Origin: Streptomyces fradiae
GTDB lineage: Bacteria > Actinomycetota > Actinomycetes > Streptomycetales > Streptomycetaceae
Reading direction: 5' to 3'
Assembly: GCF_041270065.1 (NCBI RefSeq)
Contig: NZ_CP065958.1
Location: 2,728,001 to 2,792,000 of the forward strand
DNA length: 64,000 nucleotides
Shown here in pieces: positions 1,603 to 46,747 of the stretch. A program made the position numbers and the translations under genes. Under the pieces are notes generated by a model that did not search any database, had not been told where the DNA came from, and was given only the letters and a program-made list of their open reading frames with translations. Positions within the stretch are counted from its first letter, which is position 1. Every line of letters starts with the position of its first letter.

Positions 1603-3105
<1,503 letters not shown>

Positions 3106-3127: not shown

Positions 3128-4996
3128 CTACAGGTGGCGGCGTCGGGCGGTGACGTGCCGGTCGTACTCCTCGCGGGCCTTGACCGCCGACGGGCGGGTC
3201 GAAATCGCGGCCACGGGCACATCCCACCACGCCTGGGCGGGGGGCGGGCCCGACACACTGTCGTCCGTTTCGGTCTCCACGTAGACACATGTGGGAACCG
3301 TGGCCTGCCGGGCGTCCGCGAGGGCTTCCCGCAGGTCACGTACGGTACGGGCGCGCCGCACCCGCAGGCCGAGCGAGGCGGCGTTGGCGGCGAGGTCGAC
3401 GGGCAGGGGCGGCCCGGTGAAGCCGCCGTCCTCCGCGCGGAAGCGGTAGCCGGTGCCGAAGCGCTCGGCGCCCACCGCCTCCGACAGGCCGCCGATCGAC
3501 GCGTAGCCGTGGTTGTCGAGGATCACCAGCTTGATCGGCAGTCCCTCCTGCACGGCGGTGACGATTTCGGTGGGGTTCATCAGATACGTACCGTCGCCGA
3601 CCAGCGCCCACACCGGCCGGCCGGGCGCGGCGAGCGAGACGCCGACGGCCGCCGGGATCTCGTATCCCATGCAGGAGTAGCCGTATTCGACGTGGTACTG
3701 GTCGACGGAACGGGTCCGCCACAGCTTGTGGAGGTCGCCGGGGAGTGAGCCGGCCGCGTTGATCAGGATGTCGTCCCCGGTGACCAGGGTGTCGAGTACG
3801 CCGAGGACCTGCGCCTGGGTGGGGCGGGCGCGCGGGTCGGACGCGGCGTAGGCGGCGTCGGTACGGGCCTCCCAGCGCAGCTTCTCCTCCGCGTACTCGT
3901 GCACGTAGTGCTCGGTGACATGGTGCTGCTCAAGGAGACCGTGGAGTTGCTCCAGGCCCTCGCGGGCGTCCGCGACCAGGGGGAGCGCCGCCATGCGGTG
4001 GCTGTCGACGGCGGCGATGTTGAGGTTGACGAACCGCACGGCGGGGTGGCCGAACAGGGTCGAGGACGCGGTGGTGAAGTCGCTCCAGCGGGTGCCGACC
4101 CCGATCACCACGTCGGCGGTACGGGCCAGGTGGTCGGCGACGGCGGTGCCGGTGTGGCCGATGCCGCCCACGTCCTGGGGGTGGCCGTGGGGCAGCGCGC
4201 CCTTGCCGGCCTGGGTGGAGGCGACCGGGATGCCGGTCCGTGCGGCGAAGTCGGAGAGCGACTCCTCGGCCCCGCTGTACTTGACGCCGCCGCCCGCGAC
4301 GATCAGCGGGCGGGCGGCCCGGCCGATCGCCTCCGCCGCCGCGTCCAGTTCGCCCTCGTCCGGTGACGGGCGGCGCACCCGCCAGGTCCGCTCGGCGAAG
4401 AACGCCTCGGGCCAGTCGTACGCCTCGGTCTGCACGTCCTGCGGGAGCGCGAGGGTGACGGCGCCGGTCTCGGCGGGGTCGGTGAGGACCCGGATCGCTT
4501 CGAGGGCGGCCGGGATCAGCGCCTCGGGGCGGACGATCCGGTCGAAGTACCTCGACACCGGGCGCAGACAGTCGTTGACGGAGACGTCGCCGGCGTACGG
4601 GACCTGGAGCTGCTGGAGCACGGGGTCGGCGGGGCGAGTGGCGAACGTGTCGCCGGGCAGCAGGAGGACCGGGATCCGGTTGATCGTGGCGAGCGCGGCG
4701 CCGGTGACGAGGTTGGTGGCGCCGGGGCCGATGGAGGTGGTGACGGCGTGGATCCGGAGCCGCCGGGACTGGCGGGCGTAGCCGACGGCCGCGTGCACCA
4801 TGGCCTGTTCGTTGCGCCCCTGGTGGTACGGCATGAGGTCGGCGTGCTCGACGAGCGCCTGGCCGATCCCGGCGACGTTGCCGTGGCCGAAGATGCCCCA
4901 GGTGGCGGTGACGAGCCGCTGCCGCACGCCGTCGCGCTCGGTGTGCTGGGCGGCGAGGAAGCGCACCAGGGCCTGGGCGACGGTCAGCCGGGTCAC
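3128..4996 (-). CDS. iolD: 3D-(3,5/4)-trihydroxycyclohexane-1,2-dione hydrolase
   Basis: A 622-residue thiamine-diphosphate enzyme that opens the cyclohexane ring during inositol breakdown. The cofactor-activating glutamate sits in the GRNEQAMVHAAVGYA block around residues 65-79, and the ThDP/Mg site is seen as VGDGTYLMNPTEIVTAVQEG followed by ILDNHGY near residues 470-505. Length and motif spacing match IolD rather than acetolactate synthase. The GTG start overlaps the iolB stop as GTGA (4993-4996), with GGAGGG upstream, so translation is coupled to iolB. The open frame continues far upstream only because of the GC bias inside iolB. Confidence 0.93.
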   Translation of the reverse strand: MTRLTVAQALVRFLAAQHTERDGVRQRLVTATWGIFGHGNVAGIGQALVEHADLMPYHQGRNEQAMVHAAVGYARQSRRLRIHAVTTSIGPGATNLVTGAALATINRIPVLLLPGDTFATRPADPVLQQLQVPYAGDVSVNDCLRPVSRYFDRIVRPEALIPAALEAIRVLTDPAETGAVTLALPQDVQTEAYDWPEAFFAERTWRVRRPSPDEGELDAAAEAIGRAARPLIVAGGGVKYSGAEESLSDFAARTGIPVASTQAGKGALPHGHPQDVGGIGHTGTAVADHLARTADVVIGVGTRWSDFTTASSTLFGHPAVRFVNLNIAAVDSHRMAALPLVADAREGLEQLHGLLEQHHVTEHYVHEYAEEKLRWEARTDAAYAASDPRARPTQAQVLGVLDTLVTGDDILINAAGSLPGDLHKLWRTRSVDQYHVEYGYSCMGYEIPAAVGVSLAAPGRPVWALVGDGTYLMNPTEIVTAVQEGLPIKLVILDNHGYASIGGLSEAVGAERFGTGYRFRAEDGGFTGPPLPVDLAANAASLGLRVRRARTVRDLREALADARQATVPTCVYVETETDDSVSGPPPAQAWWDVPVAAISTRPSAVKAREEYDRHVTARRRHL

Positions 4997-5853
4997 TTGT
5001 ATCCCTCCGTGTGGTCGGGGTGGAAGCTGATCCGCCACTCCCGCTCGGGGCCGGGTCCGGCCATGACGTTGAGGTAGTAGAGCGGGTGCCCGGGCTGGGC
5101 GATCGACGGGCCGTGCCAGCCGTCGGGGACGAGGACGGCGTCGCCGGTGCGGACCTCGGCGAGCAGCTCGGCGCCGCCGGGGCGGGAGGGGGTGATCCGC
5201 TGGTAGGCGTAGCCGGGCGGGGCGTGGTGCGGGGTGCCGGGCGGGGCTGCGGGTGGCGCGGACACCTCGTAGTAGTAGATCTCCTCCAGGACGGACTCCG
5301 TGCCCGGGCGGTGCTCGTCGTGCTTGTGCGGCGGGTAGGAGGACCAGTTGCCGCCGGGGGTGATCACCTCGACGGCGATCAGCCGGTCGCAGGGGAAGAC
5401 GTTCGCCGCGGCGAAGTTGCGCACCTCGCGGGTGCGGTTGCCGCTGCCCCGGGTCTCGACGGGAACCTCCGGCGCGGAGCCGTAGCGTGCGGGGAGTCGT
5501 CGCTCGCACTTCGCTCCTGCCAAAGCGAAGCGGCCTCCCGCACCGGAGGCGATCTGGGCGTGGGCGTCCCTGGGTACGTAGGCGAAGTCCGAGACCCCGT
5601 CGAACGGGCTGTCGCGGCCCACGAGTTCGAGGATTTCCCCGTCGACGCGCACCGTACCGCCCCCGGCCAGCGGAAGCACCACCCATTCGCTGTTCCCCGT
5701 CTCGAACTCGTGGGTCCCGCCGGGCGGCAGATCGAGCACCCGCAGCGAGCTGTGCGTCCAGCCGGCCCGCTCGGGGTCGATGTCGACGTCGTACGGGCCG
5801 CGGGCGGCCGAGCCGGCGGGGAGATGGAGGGCGAGCGTGGAGTCCATGGTCAT
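4993..5853 (-). CDS. iolB: 5-deoxy-glucuronate isomerase
   Basis: A 286-residue bicupin isomerase that converts 5-deoxy-D-glucuronate to 5-dehydro-2-deoxy-D-gluconate, between the IolD and IolC steps. Visible family features are the N-terminal YDVDIDPERAGWTHSSLRVL segment, GNRTREVRNF, and the metal-binding region with SSYPPHKHDEHR and EEIYYYEV around residues 172-195. Two in-frame ATGs (5853 and 5847) are possible; the second has AGGGA at a slightly better distance. It lies 24 bases after iolC and overlaps iolD by four bases. Confidence 0.92.
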   Translation of the reverse strand: MTMDSTLALHLPAGSAARGPYDVDIDPERAGWTHSSLRVLDLPPGGTHEFETGNSEWVVLPLAGGGTVRVDGEILELVGRDSPFDGVSDFAYVPRDAHAQIASGAGGRFALAGAKCERRLPARYGSAPEVPVETRGSGNRTREVRNFAAANVFPCDRLIAVEVITPGGNWSSYPPHKHDEHRPGTESVLEEIYYYEVSAPPAAPPGTPHHAPPGYAYQRITPSRPGGAELLAEVRTGDAVLVPDGWHGPSIAQPGHPLYYLNVMAGPGPEREWRISFHPDHTEGYK

Positions 5854-5877: not shown

Positions 5878-6921
5878 TCATCGGGGGTGCTCCGGGATCG
5901 AGGCGTCGCCGGTGGCGAGGGCCAGGTCGATCTCCTCGGCGTACGGCATGGCGGGCGAGCAGGCGAGCCGGCCGGCCACGATCGCGCCCGCCGCGTTGGC
6001 CCGGCGCAGCAGCAGTTCCAGGTCGAGGCCGGCGAGCAGTCCCTGGGCGAGCGCGCCGCCGAAGGCGTCGCCGGCGCCGAGGCCGTTGACCACCTCGACC
6101 GGCAGCGGCGGGACCTCGGCGGTGGTGCCGTCGGCGGCGAGCGCGAGGACGCCCTTGGGGCCCTGTTTGACGACGGCGAGCCGGACACCGGCGGCGAGCA
6201 GGGCGCGGGCGGCGGCGTACGGCTCGCGCTCGCCGGTGGCGACCTCGCACTCGTCGAGGTTGCCGACGGCGACGGTCACGTGCCGCAGCGCCTCCGCGTA
6301 CAGCGGGCCGGCCTCGCCGGGGGCGTCCCAGAGGGCGGGGCGCCAGTCGAGGTCGAGGACGGTGAACGCCCCGGGTCCGGCCGCGGCGGCCCGCTCGCGC
6401 AGCGCCGCGAGGGTCGCGGTGCGGCTGGGTTCGGCGCTCAGGCCGGTGCCGGTGACCCACAGCGCGCGGGCCGCCCGGAGTGCGTGGAGGTCCAGCTCGT
6501 GGGGGTGGATCTCCAGGTCGGGGGCCTTGGGGCGGCGGTAGAAGTGGATCGGGAAGTGGTCGGGCGGGAAGATCTCGCAGAAGGTGACCGGGGTGGGGTA
6601 CGCGGCGACCTCGGTGACCCACCGCTCGTCCACCCGGAAGGCCCGGAGCTCGCGGCGCAGGTACTCCCCGAACGGGTCGGCCCCGGTCCGGCTGATCAGC
6701 GCGGTGCGGCAGCCGAGCCGCGCGGCGGCGACGGCCACATTGGCCGGGGAGCCGCCGAGGAACTTCCCGAAGCTCTCCACCCGGGCCAGCTCCACCCCGC
6801 TCTGCAACGGGTACAGGTCCACACCGAGGCGCCCCATCGTGATCAGGTCGTACGCGACCGGGTCCCGCCCGATCGGGTCGTCGGGGCGGCCGTCCCGCCG
6901 GTGCTCCGGTTCCGCCGTCAT
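5878..6921 (-). CDS. iolC: 5-dehydro-2-deoxygluconokinase (PfkB family)
   Basis: A 347-residue ribokinase-family sugar kinase that phosphorylates 5-dehydro-2-deoxygluconate. It shows the N-terminal GKFLGGSPANVAVAAARLG motif (residues 52-70) and the C-terminal ATP/anion-hole motif NGLGAGDAFGGAL, whose aspartate (near residue 286) is the catalytic base. The ATG at 6921 is chosen because AGGTG lies eight bases before it; a GTG six bases further upstream would sit on top of that site. It is the first gene of the leftward operon, with a good promoter at 6967-6995. No iolJ aldolase or iolG dehydrogenase lies directly beside it. Confidence 0.92.
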   Translation of the reverse strand: MTAEPEHRRDGRPDDPIGRDPVAYDLITMGRLGVDLYPLQSGVELARVESFGKFLGGSPANVAVAAARLGCRTALISRTGADPFGEYLRRELRAFRVDERWVTEVAAYPTPVTFCEIFPPDHFPIHFYRRPKAPDLEIHPHELDLHALRAARALWVTGTGLSAEPSRTATLAALRERAAAAGPGAFTVLDLDWRPALWDAPGEAGPLYAEALRHVTVAVGNLDECEVATGEREPYAAARALLAAGVRLAVVKQGPKGVLALAADGTTAEVPPLPVEVVNGLGAGDAFGGALAQGLLAGLDLELLLRRANAAGAIVAGRLACSPAMPYAEEIDLALATGDASIPEHPR

Positions 6922-19939: not shown

Positions 19940-20743
19940 TCACACCGCCAGGAACGCCTCCAGCGTCTCCTCCAGGACCTCCACGCCGTCCCGCGCCCAC
20001 AGGGCGTCGTTGAAGAGTTCGACCTCCACGGGGCCCGTGTAGCCCGCCTTCTCGACCAGGGCCGCCCAGGCGGGGAGGTCGATCGCGCCGGTGCCGAGCT
20101 GGCCGCGGCCGTTGAGGACGCCGGCCGGGAGGGGGGTGGTCCAGTCGGCGAGCTGGAAGGAGTGGATGCGGCCGGCCGCGCCCGCGCGGGCGACGGCGGC
20201 CGGGGCGCGGTCGTCCCACCAGAGGTGGTACGTGTCGACCGTGACGCCCACCTGGTCGGCCGGGAAGTGCTCGGCGATCTCCAGGGCCTGGTCCAGGGTG
20301 GAGACCGCGCACCGGTCGGAGGCGTACATGGGGTGGAGGGGCTCGATGGCCAGGCGGACGCCCTGCTCCCCCGCGTACGGGGCGAGCGCGCCGATCGCCT
20401 CGGTGATCCGGGCCCGGGCGGCGGGGAGGTCCGGGCAGGCCGGGGTGAGGCCGCCGGAGACCAGGACGAGGGTGTCGGTGCCGAGGACCGCGGCCTCGTC
20501 GATCGCCGCGCGGTTCTCCGCCTCCCAGCCGTCGCCGGTGAAGAATCCGCCCCGGCACAGCGTGGTGACGGCGAGCCCCGCGTCCCGCACCAGGGCCGCG
20601 GTCGCCTCGATGCCGTACTCCTGGACGGGTTCGCGCCACAGGCCCACGCCCGGGATCCCGAGCCGGACGCACTCCGCGACCAGGTCGGGAAGGGCGAGCT
20701 GCTTCACCGTCATCTGGTTGATGCCGAAGCGGTCGAGGTTCAC
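19940..20743 (-). CDS. TIM-barrel sugar phosphate isomerase/epimerase (AP-endonuclease-2-like fold)
   Basis: A 267-residue protein of the xylose-isomerase-like superfamily. It starts GINQMTVKQLALPDLVAECVRLGIPGVGLWREPV. Candidate metal ligands are the glutamate in LAIEPLHPMYASDRC (near 147), the aspartate/histidine in VGVTVDTYHLWWD (near 180), the histidine in RIHSFQLADW (near 207) and the glutamate in VEVELFND (near 248). The GTG start overlaps the stop of the DUF993 gene as GTGA (20740-20743), so translation is coupled. As third gene of the LacI-controlled operon it probably isomerises or epimerises the keto product of the dehydrogenase. The exact substrate is unknown. Confidence 0.85.
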   Translation of the reverse strand: MNLDRFGINQMTVKQLALPDLVAECVRLGIPGVGLWREPVQEYGIEATAALVRDAGLAVTTLCRGGFFTGDGWEAENRAAIDEAAVLGTDTLVLVSGGLTPACPDLPAARARITEAIGALAPYAGEQGVRLAIEPLHPMYASDRCAVSTLDQALEIAEHFPADQVGVTVDTYHLWWDDRAPAAVARAGAAGRIHSFQLADWTTPLPAGVLNGRGQLGTGAIDLPAWAALVEKAGYTGPVEVELFNDALWARDGVEVLEETLEAFLAV

Positions 20744-21891
20744 TGGGCGACTCCGTACACGGTGAGGAGCGAACGCATCCGGGACTCCGCACGGGCCGGG
20801 TCGGGGAACAGGCCGAGGCCGTCGGCGAGTTCGTACGCCTGGGCGAGGTGGGGCAGGGAGCGGGCGGACTGCAGGCCGCCCGCCATCGTGAAGTGCTCCT
20901 GGTGGCCGGCCAGCCAGGCGAGGAAGACCACCCCCGTCTTGTAGAAGCGGGTGGGGGTCTCGAAGAGATGGCGGGAGAGTTCCACCGTCGGGTCGAGGGC
21001 GGCGCGGAAGCCTGCCGTGTCGCCCGTGTCGAGCACCCGGACCGCCTCCGCCGCCAGCGGACCCAGCGGGTCGAAGATCCCGAGCAGGGCGTGGCTGAAA
21101 CCGTGGGTGTCGCCCGCGATCAGTTCGGGGTAGTGGAAGTCGTCGCCCGTGTAGCAGCGGACCCCGTCCGGCAGCCGGCGGCGCAGCGCGACCTCGCGGC
21201 CCGCGTCGAGCAGCGAGACCTTGATGCCGTCGACCTTGTCCGGGTGCGCGGCGATGACTTCGAGGAACACCTCCGTCGCCGCGTCCAGGTCCGCCGACCC
21301 CCAGTAGCCCGCCAGGGCCGGGTCGAACATCGGGCCCAGCCAGTGCAGGATCACCGGCTCGGCGGCCTGGCGCAGCAGCTGCCCGTAAACCTCCAGGTAG
21401 TCCTCGGGGCCGGTCGCGGTGGCCGCGAGGGCCCGGGAGGCCATGAGGATCGCCTGGGCGCCCGACTCCTCGACGACGGCGAGCTGTTCCTCGTACGCCG
21501 CGTGGATCTCCGTAAGAGTGGCCGGGCCGGTGAGTTGGTCGGTGCCGACCCCGCACGCGATCGGGCCGCCCACCGCCTTCGCCTCGGCGGCGCTGCGGCG
21601 GATCAGCTCGGCCGCGCCCGCCCAGTCCAGGCCCATGCCGCGCTGCGCGGTGTCCATCGCCTCGGCGACGCCGAGCCCGTGGGACCACAGGTGGCGGCGG
21701 AAGGCGAGGGTGGCGTCCCAGTCGAGGGCGGCCGGGCCGTCGGGGGTGGTGTCGGCGTACGGGTCGGCGACGACGTGCGCGGCGGAGAAGACCGTACGGG
21801 AGACCAGCGGACCGGCCCCGGTGAGCGCGAGCGGCTCGGTACGGGGGGTGTACGCGCGCGTGCCGCCGCCCGGCAGGGGAAGGGCGATCAC
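20740..21891 (-). CDS. DUF993 / dihydrodipicolinate-synthase-like protein
   Basis: A 383-residue cytoplasmic protein of the DUF993 family, distantly related to the DHDPS/N-acetylneuraminate lyase TIM-barrel aldolases. Recognisable pieces are SRTVFSAAHVVADPYADTTP (about 26-45), PIACGVGTDQL (near 98), AILMASRALAA (near 128), VILHWLGPMFDP (near 157) and a lysine in VDGIKVSLLDAGRE (near 200), the position where the Schiff-base lysine of DHDPS enzymes would be expected. The GTG start overlaps the preceding dehydrogenase stop as GTGA (21888-21891), with AGAGGT upstream. A carbon-carbon cleavage role in the same pathway is plausible but unproven. Confidence 0.82.
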   Translation of the reverse strand: MIALPLPGGGTRAYTPRTEPLALTGAGPLVSRTVFSAAHVVADPYADTTPDGPAALDWDATLAFRRHLWSHGLGVAEAMDTAQRGMGLDWAGAAELIRRSAAEAKAVGGPIACGVGTDQLTGPATLTEIHAAYEEQLAVVEESGAQAILMASRALAATATGPEDYLEVYGQLLRQAAEPVILHWLGPMFDPALAGYWGSADLDAATEVFLEVIAAHPDKVDGIKVSLLDAGREVALRRRLPDGVRCYTGDDFHYPELIAGDTHGFSHALLGIFDPLGPLAAEAVRVLDTGDTAGFRAALDPTVELSRHLFETPTRFYKTGVVFLAWLAGHQEHFTMAGGLQSARSLPHLAQAYELADGLGLFPDPARAESRMRSLLTVYGVAQ

Positions 21892-23051
21892 AGCGCGACC
21901 TCTGGGACCTCGATCCGGCGGCCCTCCGCAGCCGAGCGCAGGCCGAGCTCGGCGAGCTGCACACCGCGCGCGCCCGCGAGCAGGTCCCAGTGGTACGGCT
22001 CGCCGAGCACGACGTGCCGCAGGAACAGCTCCCACTGGGCCTTGAAGCCGTTGTCGAACTCGGCGTTGTCCGGCACCTCCTGCCACTGCTCGCGGAACGG
22101 CTCGGTCGCCGGGATGTCCGGGTTCCACACGGGCTTCGGGGTGGCGGCGCGGTGCTGGATCCGGCAGCCGCGCAGGCCGGCGACGGCGGAGCCGTGCGTC
22201 CCGTCGACCTGGAACTCGACGAGCTCGTCGCGGTGCACCCGGACCGCCCAGGAGGAGTTGATCTGCGCGATGGCGCCGCCCGCCAGCTGGAAGATGCCGT
22301 ACGCGGCGTCGTCGGCGGTCGCCTCGTACGGCTTGCCCCGCTCGTCCCAGCGGCGCGGCACATGGGTGGCGACGGCGGCGGTGACGGAGGTGACCCGGCC
22401 GAACAGCTCGTGGAGCACGTACTCCCAGTGCGGGAACATGTCGACGACGATGCCGCCGCCGTCCTCCGCGCGGTAGTTCCAGCTGGGGCGCTGCGCCTCC
22501 TGCCAGTCGCCCTCGAAGACCCAGTAGCCGAACTCGCCGCGCACGGACAGGATCTCGCCGAAGAAGCCGCCGTCGATCAGCCGCTTCAGCTTGCGCAGGC
22601 CCGGCAGGAACAGCTTGTCCTGGACGACGCCGTGCCGGATGCCCTTCTCCTGGGCCAGGCGGGCGAGTTCGAGGGCGCCGGCCAGGTCACCGGCGGTGGG
22701 CTTCTCGGTGTAGACGTGCTTGCCGGCGGCGATGGCCTTGGTCAGCGCGGCGACGCGGGCGGAGGTGACCTGCGCGTCGAAGTAGATGTCGATCGAGTCG
22801 TCGGCGAGGACCGCGTCGAGGTCGGTGGACCACTCGGTCAGCCCGTGCCGCTCGGCGAGCGCGCGCAGCGCGGGCTCGCGGCGGCCGACGAGGACCGGTT
22901 CCGGCCACAGGACCTGGCCGTCGCCGAGGTCGAGTCCGCCCTGCTCGCGCAGGGCGAGGATCGAGCGGACGAGGTGCTGGCGGTATCCCATGCGGCCGGT
23001 GACGCCGTTCATGGCGATGCGGACGGTGCGGCGGGCGGTGCGGGGTGTCAC
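21888..23051 (-). CDS. Gfo/Idh/MocA-family dehydrogenase
   Basis: A 387-residue NAD(P)-dependent oxidoreductase. The N-terminal Rossmann part has an unusual MNGVTGRMGYRQHLVRSI (residues 14-31), followed by AGKHVYTEKPTAG near 109-121, the Gfo/Idh/MocA signature whose lysine is catalytic. The C-terminal domain contains GGGIVVDMFPHWEYVLHELFG near 199-219, with the usual catalytic-site histidine. It oxidises a sugar, cyclitol or glycoside hydroxyl to a ketone. The GTG start has GGAGG a few bases upstream. It is the first gene of the operon facing the LacI regulator, with the 16-bp palindrome 57 bases before its start. Confidence 0.88.
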   Translation of the reverse strand: MTPRTARRTVRIAMNGVTGRMGYRQHLVRSILALREQGGLDLGDGQVLWPEPVLVGRREPALRALAERHGLTEWSTDLDAVLADDSIDIYFDAQVTSARVAALTKAIAAGKHVYTEKPTAGDLAGALELARLAQEKGIRHGVVQDKLFLPGLRKLKRLIDGGFFGEILSVRGEFGYWVFEGDWQEAQRPSWNYRAEDGGGIVVDMFPHWEYVLHELFGRVTSVTAAVATHVPRRWDERGKPYEATADDAAYGIFQLAGGAIAQINSSWAVRVHRDELVEFQVDGTHGSAVAGLRGCRIQHRAATPKPVWNPDIPATEPFREQWQEVPDNAEFDNGFKAQWELFLRHVVLGEPYHWDLLAGARGVQLAELGLRSAAEGRRIEVPEVAL

Positions 23052-23107
23052 GGGGGTGTTCCTCCCGGAGGGGGCGGGGAGCGGCGGGGATGGAAACGGA
23101 GGAAAGA

Positions 23108-23123
23108 TAGAAAGCGCTTTCTA
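23108..23123. promoter_or_regulatory. Perfect 16-bp LacI/GalR-type operator
   Basis: TAGAAAGCGCTTTCTA is a perfect palindrome with the central CG characteristic of LacI/GalR operators. It lies in the 133-bp divergent region, 57 bases before the dehydrogenase and 61 bases before the LacI gene, so one bound dimer could control both directions. Confidence 0.85.
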
Positions 23124-23184
23124 CGACGTATGACGCTAGCCTGCCGACATCACTGCCGACAAGGGCCCTGGAGGTACGCACGCG

Positions 23185-24228
23185 ATGACCGTCACCCTGG
23201 CGGACGTGGCAGCCCGCGCACAGGTCTCCCCCGCGACCGTCTCCCGCGTCCTGAACGGCAACTACCCGGTCGCCGCCGCCACCCGAGAGCGGGTGCTGCG
23301 CGCGGTGGACGAGCTCGACTACGTACCGAACGGACCGGCCAGCTCCCTCGCCGCCGCCACCTCCGACCTGGTCGGCATCCTCGTCAACGACATCGCCGAC
23401 CCCTTCTTCGGGATCATGGCCGGGGCCGCGCAGGGCGCCATCGGCGCGCCGGGCGCGGGGCGGGCCGGCGGCGAGAAACTGGCCGTGGTGTGCAACACCG
23501 GCGGCGACCCGGAGCGCGAACTCACCTATCTCACCCTGCTCCAGCGGCAGCGCGCCGCCGCCGTGATCCTCACCGGCGGCTCCCTGGAGGACCCGGAGCA
23601 CCTGGCGGCGGTGAGCGCGAAGCTGGCCCGGCTCACCGAGGCCGGCACCCGGGTGGTGCTGTGCGGGCGGCCCCCGCTGGAGGGGGTGTCGGCCGCCACG
23701 CTCGCCTTCGACAACCGGACCGGGGCGCAGCGGCTCACCGAGTACCTGCTGTCGCTCGGGCACCGGCGGATCGGTTACGTCGCGGGCCCGGAGAACCGCA
23801 CCACCACCCGGCACCGCCTGGAGGGCCACCGGGCGGCGCTCGCGGCGGCCGGGGTCGCGGAGGGCCCGACCGTGCACGGCCGCTACGACCGCCCGTCCGG
23901 CTACGAGGTGACCTCCGAACTCCTGTCCCGCGCCCCGGACCTGACGGCGGTCGTCGCCGCCAACGACACGGTCGCGCTCGGCGTCTGCGCGGCGCTGCGC
24001 GACCGGGGCCTGAGCATCCCGGGCGACGTCTCGGTGGCCGGCTTCGACGACCTGCCCTTCTCGGTCGACGCGGTGCCCGCGCTCACGACCGTACGGCTCC
24101 CGCTGCACGAGGCGGGCGCGCGGGCCGGGCGGATCGCGCTCGGCGCGGAGGAGCCGCCGGCGGGCGAGCCCTCGACGATCCCGGCGGAGCTGGTGGTACG
24201 GGGGTCGACGGCGCCGCCGAAGGGGTGA
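23185..24228 (+). CDS. LacI-family transcriptional regulator of the adjoining sugar operon
   Basis: A 347-residue repressor. The N-terminal HTH and hinge are textbook: VTLADVAARAQVSPATVSRVLNGNYPVAAATRERVLRAVDELDYVPN (residues 2-48). The rest is a periplasmic-binding-protein-like effector domain, including SLGHRRIGYVAGPENRTTTRHRLEGH near 187-212 and VVAANDTVALGVCAALRDRGLSIPGDVSVAGFDD near 255-288. GGAGGT lies nine bases before the ATG. It is divergent from the dehydrogenase/DUF993/isomerase operon with a perfect palindrome between, which is strong circumstantial evidence for local control. The effector is presumably the pathway sugar. Confidence 0.93.
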   Translation: MTVTLADVAARAQVSPATVSRVLNGNYPVAAATRERVLRAVDELDYVPNGPASSLAAATSDLVGILVNDIADPFFGIMAGAAQGAIGAPGAGRAGGEKLAVVCNTGGDPERELTYLTLLQRQRAAAVILTGGSLEDPEHLAAVSAKLARLTEAGTRVVLCGRPPLEGVSAATLAFDNRTGAQRLTEYLLSLGHRRIGYVAGPENRTTTRHRLEGHRAALAAAGVAEGPTVHGRYDRPSGYEVTSELLSRAPDLTAVVAANDTVALGVCAALRDRGLSIPGDVSVAGFDDLPFSVDAVPALTTVRLPLHEAGARAGRIALGAEEPPAGEPSTIPAELVVRGSTAPPKG

Positions 24229-45064: not shown

Positions 45065-46747
45065 CTACAGATGCGTCGGCTCGAACATCCGCAGCAGGGC
45101 CGGGAGGACCACCACCGACGGGCCCGGGGTCTTCAGGGCCGCGGCGAGGTCCGAGGCGAGGGAGTCCGGGGTGGTGAGGGTGGCCGGGACGGCGAAGGAT
45201 TCGGCGAGGGCGACGAAGTCTGGGCGGGTGAGTTCGGTGGCGGTGGCCGCGCCGAAGGCGTCCGTCATGTACTCGCGCAGGATGCCGTAGCCGCCGTCGT
45301 CGACGATCAGCCAGGTGACGTCGAGCTCGTACTGCTTCGCCGTGGCCAGCTCCGCGATCGAGTACATCGCGCCGCCGTCGCCCGACACCGCGAGGACCGG
45401 GCGGGTCGGGTCGGCCACGGCGGCGCCCAGCGCGGCGGGGAAGGCGTAGCCGAGGCCGCCGGCGCCCTGGGCCGAGTGCATCGTGTTCGGGTGGCGCGCG
45501 TCGAAGGCGGACCAGGCCCAGTAGGCCAGGATCGTCATGTCCCAGAAGCTCGGGGCCCGGGACGGGAGCGCCTCGCGGACCGCCGCCACGACCCGCTGCT
45601 CCAGGTCCAGGTCCTGGGCGGCGAGGCGGTCCCGGACCTTCGCGAGCAGGGCGGCGACCCGCTCCGGGGCGGCCGGGTCCTCCCGTACCGCCACCGTCTC
45701 CAGGAGCGCCTGCAGCGCGAGGCGGGCGTCCGCGTGGATGCCGAGCGCCGGGTGGTTGGACTCCAGCTTGCCCGCGTCGGCCTCGATCTGGATCACCCGG
45801 CCGCGCGGGGCGAAGGTGTGGTAGTTCGAGGACAGCTCGCCGAGGCCGGAGCCGACCACGAGGAGCACGTCCGCGTCCTCCAGGAAGTCCGTGGTGTGCC
45901 GGTCCTCCAGCCAGGACTGCAGGGAGAGCGGGTGCTGCCACGGGAAGGCGCCCTTGCCGCCGAAGGTCGTCACGACCGGCGCCGCGATCCGCTCGGCGAG
46001 CGCCCGCAGCTTGCCGGAGGCGTCCGAGCGGACCACCCCGCCGCCCGCGATGATCACGGGGCGCTCGGCGTGCGCCAGCAGGTGCGCGGCGACGGCCGTC
46101 AGCTCGGGCCGCGGCGGGATCTCGTCGGGCGTCGCGTCCATGGCCGTGACCACCGGCAGCGTCGTCTCCGCGAGCAGCACGTCCTGCGGGATCTCCACCC
46201 ACACCGGCCCGTGCGGGGCGGTGAGCGCGGACTGCCAGGCGGCGGCGATCGCGGACGGGATCTGCGACTGCGTCCGCACGGTGTGCACGGACTTCACGAC
46301 GTCCCGGAAGGACGCCTGCTGGTCGCGCAGCTCGTGGAGGTAGCCGTGCCGGCCGCCGCCGAGCCCGGCGCCCGGGATCTGGCTCCCGATCGCGAGCACG
46401 GGCGCGGACGCGGCCGCCGCCTCCTGCAGCGCGGCGAGCGACATCAGCGCCCCGGGGCCGGTGGACAGCAGCAGCGGGGCCGCCTCGCCGGTGATCCGCC
46501 CGTACGCGTCGGCCGCGAAGCCCGCGTTGTTCTCGACCCGCAGTCCGACGTACCGCAGGTCGGAGCGGCGCAGCGCGTCGAACATGCCGAGCGCGTGCTG
46601 CCCCGGGAGCCCGAAGACCGTCGTGGCGCCGAGTCCGCTGAGGCTCTCGACGACCAGGTCCCCGCCGGTCCGCCCGGCGGGCGGGTGGAGGGCCGCCGCG
46701 GTCTGCGCGGGCGTCGGGCGCAGGACCAGGTCGTGGTCGTGGGTCAT
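45065..46747 (-). CDS. ThDP-dependent enzyme (acetolactate synthase-like decarboxylase)
   Basis: A 560-residue thiamine-diphosphate enzyme with the three-domain layout of the acetolactate synthase/pyruvate oxidase family. The N-terminal block has FGLPGQHALGMFDAL and the cofactor glutamate in RVENNAGFAADAYGR (near 77). The central domain contains RPVIIAGGGVV. The C-terminal ThDP site reads SGDGGAMYSIAELATAKQYELDVTWLIVDDGGYG, with aspartates where acetolactate synthases usually have asparagine. No FAD-specific motif is obvious. It is 120 bases downstream of agmatinase on the same strand, so a role near arginine/agmatine metabolism is possible but not shown. Confidence 0.85.
   Translation of the reverse strand: MTHDHDLVLRPTPAQTAAALHPPAGRTGGDLVVESLSGLGATTVFGLPGQHALGMFDALRRSDLRYVGLRVENNAGFAADAYGRITGEAAPLLLSTGPGALMSLAALQEAAAASAPVLAIGSQIPGAGLGGGRHGYLHELRDQQASFRDVVKSVHTVRTQSQIPSAIAAAWQSALTAPHGPVWVEIPQDVLLAETTLPVVTAMDATPDEIPPRPELTAVAAHLLAHAERPVIIAGGGVVRSDASGKLRALAERIAAPVVTTFGGKGAFPWQHPLSLQSWLEDRHTTDFLEDADVLLVVGSGLGELSSNYHTFAPRGRVIQIEADAGKLESNHPALGIHADARLALQALLETVAVREDPAAPERVAALLAKVRDRLAAQDLDLEQRVVAAVREALPSRAPSFWDMTILAYWAWSAFDARHPNTMHSAQGAGGLGYAFPAALGAAVADPTRPVLAVSGDGGAMYSIAELATAKQYELDVTWLIVDDGGYGILREYMTDAFGAATATELTRPDFVALAESFAVPATLTTPDSLASDLAAALKTPGPSVVVLPALLRMFEPTHL

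Follow-up and report, generated by a model that had tools for sequence, protein, structure and literature searches.

A conserved dehydrogenase-DUF993-TIM barrel operon facing a LacI gene in Streptomyces fradiae, a candidate for the catabolism of a sugar-derived compound

Class I aldolases of the dihydrodipicolinate synthase (DHDPS) and N-acetylneuraminate lyase (NAL) type carry a Schiff-base lysine on strand 6 and a tyrosine motif at the end of strand 5. Among the rhizopine enzymes, MocA belongs to the Gfo/Idh/MocA family and MosA is DHDPS-like, and ThuA/ThuB and disaccharide 3-dehydrogenase systems are 3-keto-glycoside pathways. We analyzed a stretch of 64,000 nucleotides of the Streptomyces fradiae genome (contig NZ_CP065958.1, positions 2,728,001 to 2,792,000; hereafter the window), which carries an operon for a Gfo/Idh/MocA dehydrogenase, a DUF993 protein, and a TIM-barrel protein beside a divergent LacI gene. 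The nearest known locus is SMc04130-SMc04133 of Sinorhizobium meliloti, for which the accessible parts of the literature searched report no function. According to the accessible part of PMC7676230, the levoglucosan cluster of Bacillus smithii carries a LacI gene. We tentatively propose, with a probability of roughly 0.45, that the S. fradiae genes form a catabolic operon whose substrate is derived from a sugar, a sugar acid, polyol, or keto-sugar being most likely, and whose products exit via glycerate or 2-keto-3-deoxy acids. This reading is favored because hydroxyl oxidation would be combined with a lyase that probably works through a Schiff base, an isomerase-type barrel, and neighbors for uptake, sugar-acid dehydration, and glycerate phosphorylation.

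Operon layout, conservation, and protein families

The three genes lie on the reverse strand and all start with GTG: the Gfo/Idh/MocA dehydrogenase gene (21888-23051, 387 aa), the DUF993 (PF06187) gene (20740-21891, 383 aa), and an AP_endonuc_2 TIM-barrel gene of the xylose-isomerase-like, sugar isomerase/epimerase type (19940-20743, 267 aa). They are joined by GTGA stop/start overlaps at 21888-21891 and 20740-20743. The LacI family gene (PF00356 and PF13377; 347 aa) starts with ATG and occupies 23185-24228 on the forward strand, and the palindrome TAGAAAGCGCTTTCTA, a putative LacI-type operator with a single occurrence in the window, is located at 23108-23123 between the two divergent start codons. 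The initial annotation, made from the sequence alone, had described three leftward GTG genes with two GTGA overlaps facing a LacI gene across a 16-bp palindrome, and each of these elements was recovered in place. Pfam matches bore out its labels for AP_endonuc_2, DUF993, Gfo/Idh/MocA, and LacI, and in the window the operon contains, as it had noted, neither a transporter nor a kinase.

DUF993 was identified in 54 of 61 genomes of the genus Streptomyces, in 88 of 296 genomes of the class (31 of 114 genera), and in 24 of 296 genomes of the phylum (14 of 198 genera), with none among 14 control genomes. It was also present in 147 plasmid records, 88 of them from Sinorhizobium or Rhizobium, and at least 7,998 DUF993-related protein clusters were found. 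The order Gfo-DUF993-TIM on one strand was seen in all of the best 80 loci of a named-genome scan, which belong to Streptomyces or close kin, one being labeled "Actinobacteria bacterium"; at one locus (L058) the Gfo match is broken into two parts, with 1.5 kb between its end and DUF993. Among 60 further actinobacterial loci, 6 of them from Streptomyces, the order was kept in 58, the exceptions being L149, at a contig end, and L151. At the latter, a Streptomyces genome carries a second DUF993, which has diverged to 46% identity and lies next to CaiB-like and CoA-transferase-like genes, resembling rhizobial DUF993 loci in this respect.

The DUF993 protein matched the PF06187 profile with 602 bits (cut-off 24) and had no NCBIfam family match. 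PF00701 gave no match up to an E-value of 1, and a weak Imm49 row was the only other Pfam match. In structure alignment, which covered the families present in the aligner's list, the protein has a DHDPS-type (beta/alpha)8 fold, and its nearest solved chain is 4dnh, which is SMc04132. Lysine K225 in GIKVSLLD is invariant in alignments of 11 and 29 DUF993 sequences, is kept in 4dnh, and aligns with the KdgD-type lysine; it is the predicted reactive lysine. H184 in LHWLG is likewise invariant and occupies the place of the KdgD-type/DHDPS tyrosine, and many further polar residues are invariant (numbering is protein position + 1, the reference P0001 having one extra leading residue). Fold and lysine alignment support the earlier description of DUF993 as DHDPS/aldolase-like. 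No reaction or established role, including an unrelated one of the kind that would speak against a carbohydrate pathway, was found for DUF993 in the open literature searched, and the accessible parts of PMC12542648, PMC11387232, PMC7676230, and PMC10066097 contain no DUF993 function.

The dehydrogenase carries PF22725, PF02894, and PF01408, with the motifs GVTGRMG at residue 16, EKP at 116, and GGGIVVDMFPHW at 198, and its nearest solved chain is 3oqb (E 6.2e-156). Its best, though weak, NCBIfam match is levoglucosan dehydrogenase NF052479 (58.7 bits, below the equivalog cut-off of 650), and inositol 2-dehydrogenase TIGR04380 scored 49.3 bits, below the equivalog cut-off of 355. The TIM-barrel protein matched PF01261 (E 2.3e-39) and has 7vpf and SMc04130 (3ju2) as solved relatives; we take its probable metal ligands to lie within IEPLHP, VDTYH, HSFQLADW, and VEVELFN.

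The putative operator and its other occurrences

The 7.88-Mb genome contains the exact 16-mer TAGAAAGCGCTTTCTA at a single place. In relatives, 71 of 71 LacI-Gfo intergenic regions contain a site that differs from it at no more than 3 positions (1 mismatch in 35, 2 in 34, and 3 in 2), compared with 0.05 expected at 3 mismatches from mononucleotide shuffles (20 each), which preserved base composition only. All 71 sites share AAGCGCTT, G3, and C14, 62 have G at position 13, and the commonest form among relatives is TAGAAAGCGCTTGCT[A/G]. A perfect palindrome of at least 12 bases holding AAGCGCTT occurs in only 5 of the 80 loci; the perfect palindrome itself is not the conserved feature. LacI is the adjacent divergent neighbor in 71 of the 80 loci, stands farther off in 1, and was not found in 8, some of which are stretches that end at contig ends. 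With a helix-turn-helix domain and a conserved palindrome-like site at the divergent promoter, the protein can be assigned as a LacI regulator with a putative cognate operator, and it probably represses the operon. The initial reading as a carbohydrate-type operon is supported, and the operon is conserved together with its divergent LacI and the operator.

Of the 61 Streptomyces genomes, 38 contain the exact pattern TAGAAAGCGCTTKCTR and none its reversed control, and 19 of the pattern's sites lie away from the module. Ten of the 19 precede the gene for a secreted protein of about 1,000-1,180 residues, at 7-61 bases from the called start (one site being just inside an over-long gene call), and in 5 of these the gene that follows belongs to a second cluster of secreted proteins. 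One site precedes a second-cluster gene alone, 3 are located where a CUT1 substrate-binding protein gene begins, at a locus with its own LacI, and the remaining 5 comprise 1 in the S. fradiae genome and 4 without an assigned gene (L259, L264, L266, and L268). A site in L267, outside the 19, appears to be part of a broken-up copy of the module itself. ThuA, GSDH, CBM6, and PKD domains were identified in one representative of the large secreted protein, and AP_endonuc_2 in two proteins of the second cluster. The full-length large protein was not found in the S. fradiae genome, which has a 39% match to residues 48-290 only. At L194, from another family, a LacI-Gfo-DUF993-TIM module is preceded by matches to the GSDH region (39.7%) and the secreted TIM barrel (37.6%), which end at distances of 2.9 and 2.0 kb from its LacI, and this locus is independent support for a link between the secreted GSDH and TIM proteins and the module.

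In S. fradiae, the second exact site lies upstream of a GntR-like open reading frame, 88 bases from its first ATG (L219:1906-15466, genome 148000-167000). Further along this strand come a DHDPS-family gene, an L-arabinonate dehydratase gene, and CUT1 transporter genes. The DHDPS-family gene is best matched by the KdgD type (140.7 bits, short of the cut-off of 278), and the dehydratase scored 922.6 bits against a cut-off of 882. By eye, xylose isomerase- and xylulokinase-like genes adjoin this row. An operator-like site, CAGAAAGCGCTTTCTG, lies at genome position 809,906 (L220 near 9907) before a secreted gene that, again by eye, is pectate-lyase-like; the site was kept out of this regulon and is perhaps a target of another LacI-family regulator.

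Neighboring genes and the inositol operon

With tblastn, the 60 further loci yielded an enolase-superfamily dehydratase (13 loci), KdgD (11), a GlxK-type glycerate kinase (10), CUT1 permeases (9), and IolB, Liv-type permeases, and secreted GSDH (5 each), several of these neighbors being on the same strand and next after the TIM barrel. Glycerate kinase is present in at least 1 copy in 262 of 296 genomes, and its 10 occurrences in the 60 fetched loci compare with an estimate of about 0.2 expected by chance in 60 stretches of 19.5 kb if each genome has about one such gene, a rough guide only because the loci are interrelated. The co-occurrence with nearby ATP-binding cassette (ABC) transporters that the initial annotation proposed to look for is seen in some other actinobacteria, where CUT1 or Liv-type genes lie beside the module.

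Plasmid loci show 4 settings. Gfo-DUF993 occurs with TIM and an enolase-superfamily gene in one. In another, a short-chain dehydrogenase/reductase (SDR) replaces Gfo before DUF993-TIM, together with CoA-transferase, enoyl-CoA hydratase, and acyl-CoA dehydrogenase (L123, L124, and L133, from rhizobia and Sagittula, with DUF993 near 10-13 kb; electron transfer flavoprotein genes in L123 and L124), and a Paraburkholderia SDR-DUF993-TIM locus is without the acyl-CoA dehydrogenase. In the third, which is without a TIM barrel, glycerate kinase, CoA-transferase, and CUT1 transporter genes accompany LacI, Gfo, and DUF993, and a Rhizobium locus is similar, without an annotated kinase. The fourth, in Glaciihabitans, is Gfo-DUF993-TIM-glycerate kinase. 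The rhizobial mandelate-racemase-type genes fall outside the actinobacterial subfamily, none of 15 plasmid loci matching that query. SDR genes near the module were considered as uronate dehydrogenases and not confirmed, one being without a PDB match at 1e-20 and that of L140 matching general SDR-type Pfam families only. On a Streptomyces yangpuensis plasmid (L128:10004-11194), DUF993 stands beside a type I polyketide synthase, an FAD monooxygenase, and a mycofactocin-type SDR. The annotation of that stretch shows neither a Gfo nor a TIM partner, and a biosynthetic use of DUF993 is possible there. In Chimaeribacter arupi (L129), the DUF993 match is in two pieces where no gene is annotated, and Gfo and TIM are annotated nearby.

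The window also holds an iol operon with IolA (1606-3102), IolD (3131-4999), IolB (5011-5820), and IolC (5911-6900), and, in agreement with the initial annotation, no IolG match was found in the window at E 1e-6. Of the 18 genomes of family f86, 17 have iolB at 6.2-10.6 kb from DUF993, and the remaining one has it on a different contig. The distance was obtainable in 41 of the 54 DUF993-bearing Streptomyces, and was 12-34 kb in 33 (one of them, G009, counted on a partial, sub-cut-off iolB match) and 0.7-6.5 Mb on the same contig in 8. An IolG-like gene is located elsewhere in the S. fradiae genome (position 6,723,612; 305.7 bits, below the 355-bit cut-off); the best IolG match is below 355 bits in 60 of the 61 Streptomyces, mostly near 280-335. 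The proximity of iolB makes the suggested link between the two operons plausible, but because of the IolG-like gene at 6,723,612 the operon's dehydrogenase is not needed for the iol pathway, and the idea that it supplies a missing inositol dehydrogenase is weakened. Well apart from the iol operon, 45065-46747 encodes a TPP-dependent-type enzyme 28.6% identical to IolD.

Candidate pathway, alternatives, and related systems

To the observed gene order, conservation, operator, fold, lysine alignment, and neighbor families, we add reactions, a reaction order, a substrate class, a metal dependence, and LacI repression that we infer. The Gfo/Idh/MocA enzyme would convert a secondary hydroxyl to a ketone, with which K225 of DUF993 would form a Schiff base before retro-aldol cleavage or dehydration, H184 standing in for the DHDPS tyrosine. 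The TIM barrel, presumably metal-dependent and distantly hydroxypyruvate isomerase-like, would isomerize or epimerize an intermediate, and the products would exit via glycerate, through glycerate kinase, or via 2-keto-3-deoxy acids. Several points weigh against this proposal. The barrel scored 40.1 bits with hydroxypyruvate isomerase TIGR03234, far under the cut-off of 353.45; glycerate kinase, KdgD, and the dehydratase were found in none of the 80 Streptomyces-type loci, up to 10 kb on each side; KdgD, with the enolase-superfamily dehydratase, is present in only 7 of 19 fetched f84 loci; and the 60 further loci were hand-picked and are interrelated, so that their counts are not independent. 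The extra operator sites may belong to another LacI because 8 of the 10 ThuA-GSDH sites are TAGAAAGCGCTTTCTG (TTTCTG form), compared with G13 in the operon sites. Finally, no single substrate fits, because the partners vary by lineage (CoA-type, polyketide cluster, and inositol genes).

Alternatively, and possibly though doubtfully, the genes may serve a 3-keto-glycoside pathway, in which Gfo would oxidize a glycoside or anhydrosugar at C3, the aglycone would be eliminated by the TIM barrel (or by DUF993), and addition of water would follow. Gfo/Idh/MocA and PF01261 proteins are paired as in LgdA/LgdB1/LgdB2 (accessible parts of PMC7676230 and PMC10066097), the best match of Gfo is to levoglucosan dehydrogenase, and the exact operator precedes the secreted protein (ThuA-GSDH-CBM6-PKD where tested) in 10 Streptomyces loci, 5 of which continue with a second-cluster gene (PF01261 where tested), with L194 adding its matches near the module's LacI. 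However, the levoglucosan dehydrogenase cut-off is not approached, the operon has no second, LgdC-like dehydrogenase, the ThuA-GSDH sites differ slightly in form from those of the operon, the accessible parts of the levoglucosan cluster papers leave DUF993 unmentioned, and the glycerate kinase and KdgD partners would be left unexplained. The nearness of iolB recalls an accessory cyclitol pathway (methylated, chiro- or scyllo-inositol, or inosamine) that would feed the adjoining iol operon in a rhizopine Moc/Mos-like manner; we consider this unlikely, since in Streptomyces the linkage may be inherited synteny, the 8 genomes with distant copies lack it, in 7 of the 19 f84 loci the module is instead accompanied by KdgD and the dehydratase, an IolG-like gene exists elsewhere, and MosA is within 1 Z unit of ordinary DHDPS rows, a tie. 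That the three genes are conserved neighbors without a joint pathway, with DUF993 an inactive or unrelated DHDPS-fold protein, would agree with its histidine at the place of the KdgD-type tyrosine, but is very improbable given that gene order and direction are preserved in different actinobacterial families and, in variant forms, on plasmids, that two stop/start pairs overlap, and that a long series of polar residues including K225 is invariant.

Catabolism of a sugar-derived compound could also be combined with the secreted proteins, in a joint reading that we regard as speculative and rather improbable. DUF993 would be a new class I lyase, using lysine and histidine on a non-pyruvate ketone, at the core of an unrecognized two-compartment actinobacterial pathway. 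Outside the cell, the secreted ThuA-GSDH-CBM6 enzyme would oxidize a saccharide of plant or cell-wall origin; an ABC transporter would import the product, and Gfo-DUF993-TIM would cut it to three-carbon units leading to glycerate. A single LacI would control the whole pathway. DUF993 has one solved but unexplained structure, and if its reaction were confirmed, genes in a large number of soil bacteria could be named. Conserved partners, the operator, and its extra targets narrow the substrates of this orphan family to a few that can be tested and provide a regulator to screen with.

Among known systems, the DHDPS/NAL class I aldolase superfamily shares the fold and the position of the predicted reactive lysine with DUF993, which differs in having its own Pfam family, a histidine for the tyrosine, about 90 more residues, and 10-18% identity with the listed DHDPS rows. 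MosA (2vc6) was the only Moc/Mos protein among the DUF993 fold matches. Locus L121 (strain Ak57, plasmid pSymB), which matches SMc04130-SMc04133, differs from the operon in having TetR for LacI and an enolase-superfamily gene in the row. The myo-inositol iol operon is similar in its Gfo/Idh/MocA and PF01261 enzymes and is a neighbor in f86, but the Gfo protein falls short of the IolG cut-off, and the operon here is separate, with its own regulator gene. The levoglucosan LgdA/LgdB1/LgdB2/LgdC system likewise combines a Gfo/Idh/MocA dehydrogenase with a PF01261 barrel, whereas its Gfo equivalog cut-off is far above the present protein and DUF993 goes unmentioned in the accessible parts of its reports. 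KdgD-type genes of the KdgD/aldarate pathway come after the module in 7 f84 loci, and the L-arabinonate dehydratase row of the oxidative pentose pathway carries the same operator in S. fradiae; both pathways have their own DHDPS-family enzyme, to which DUF993 is additional.

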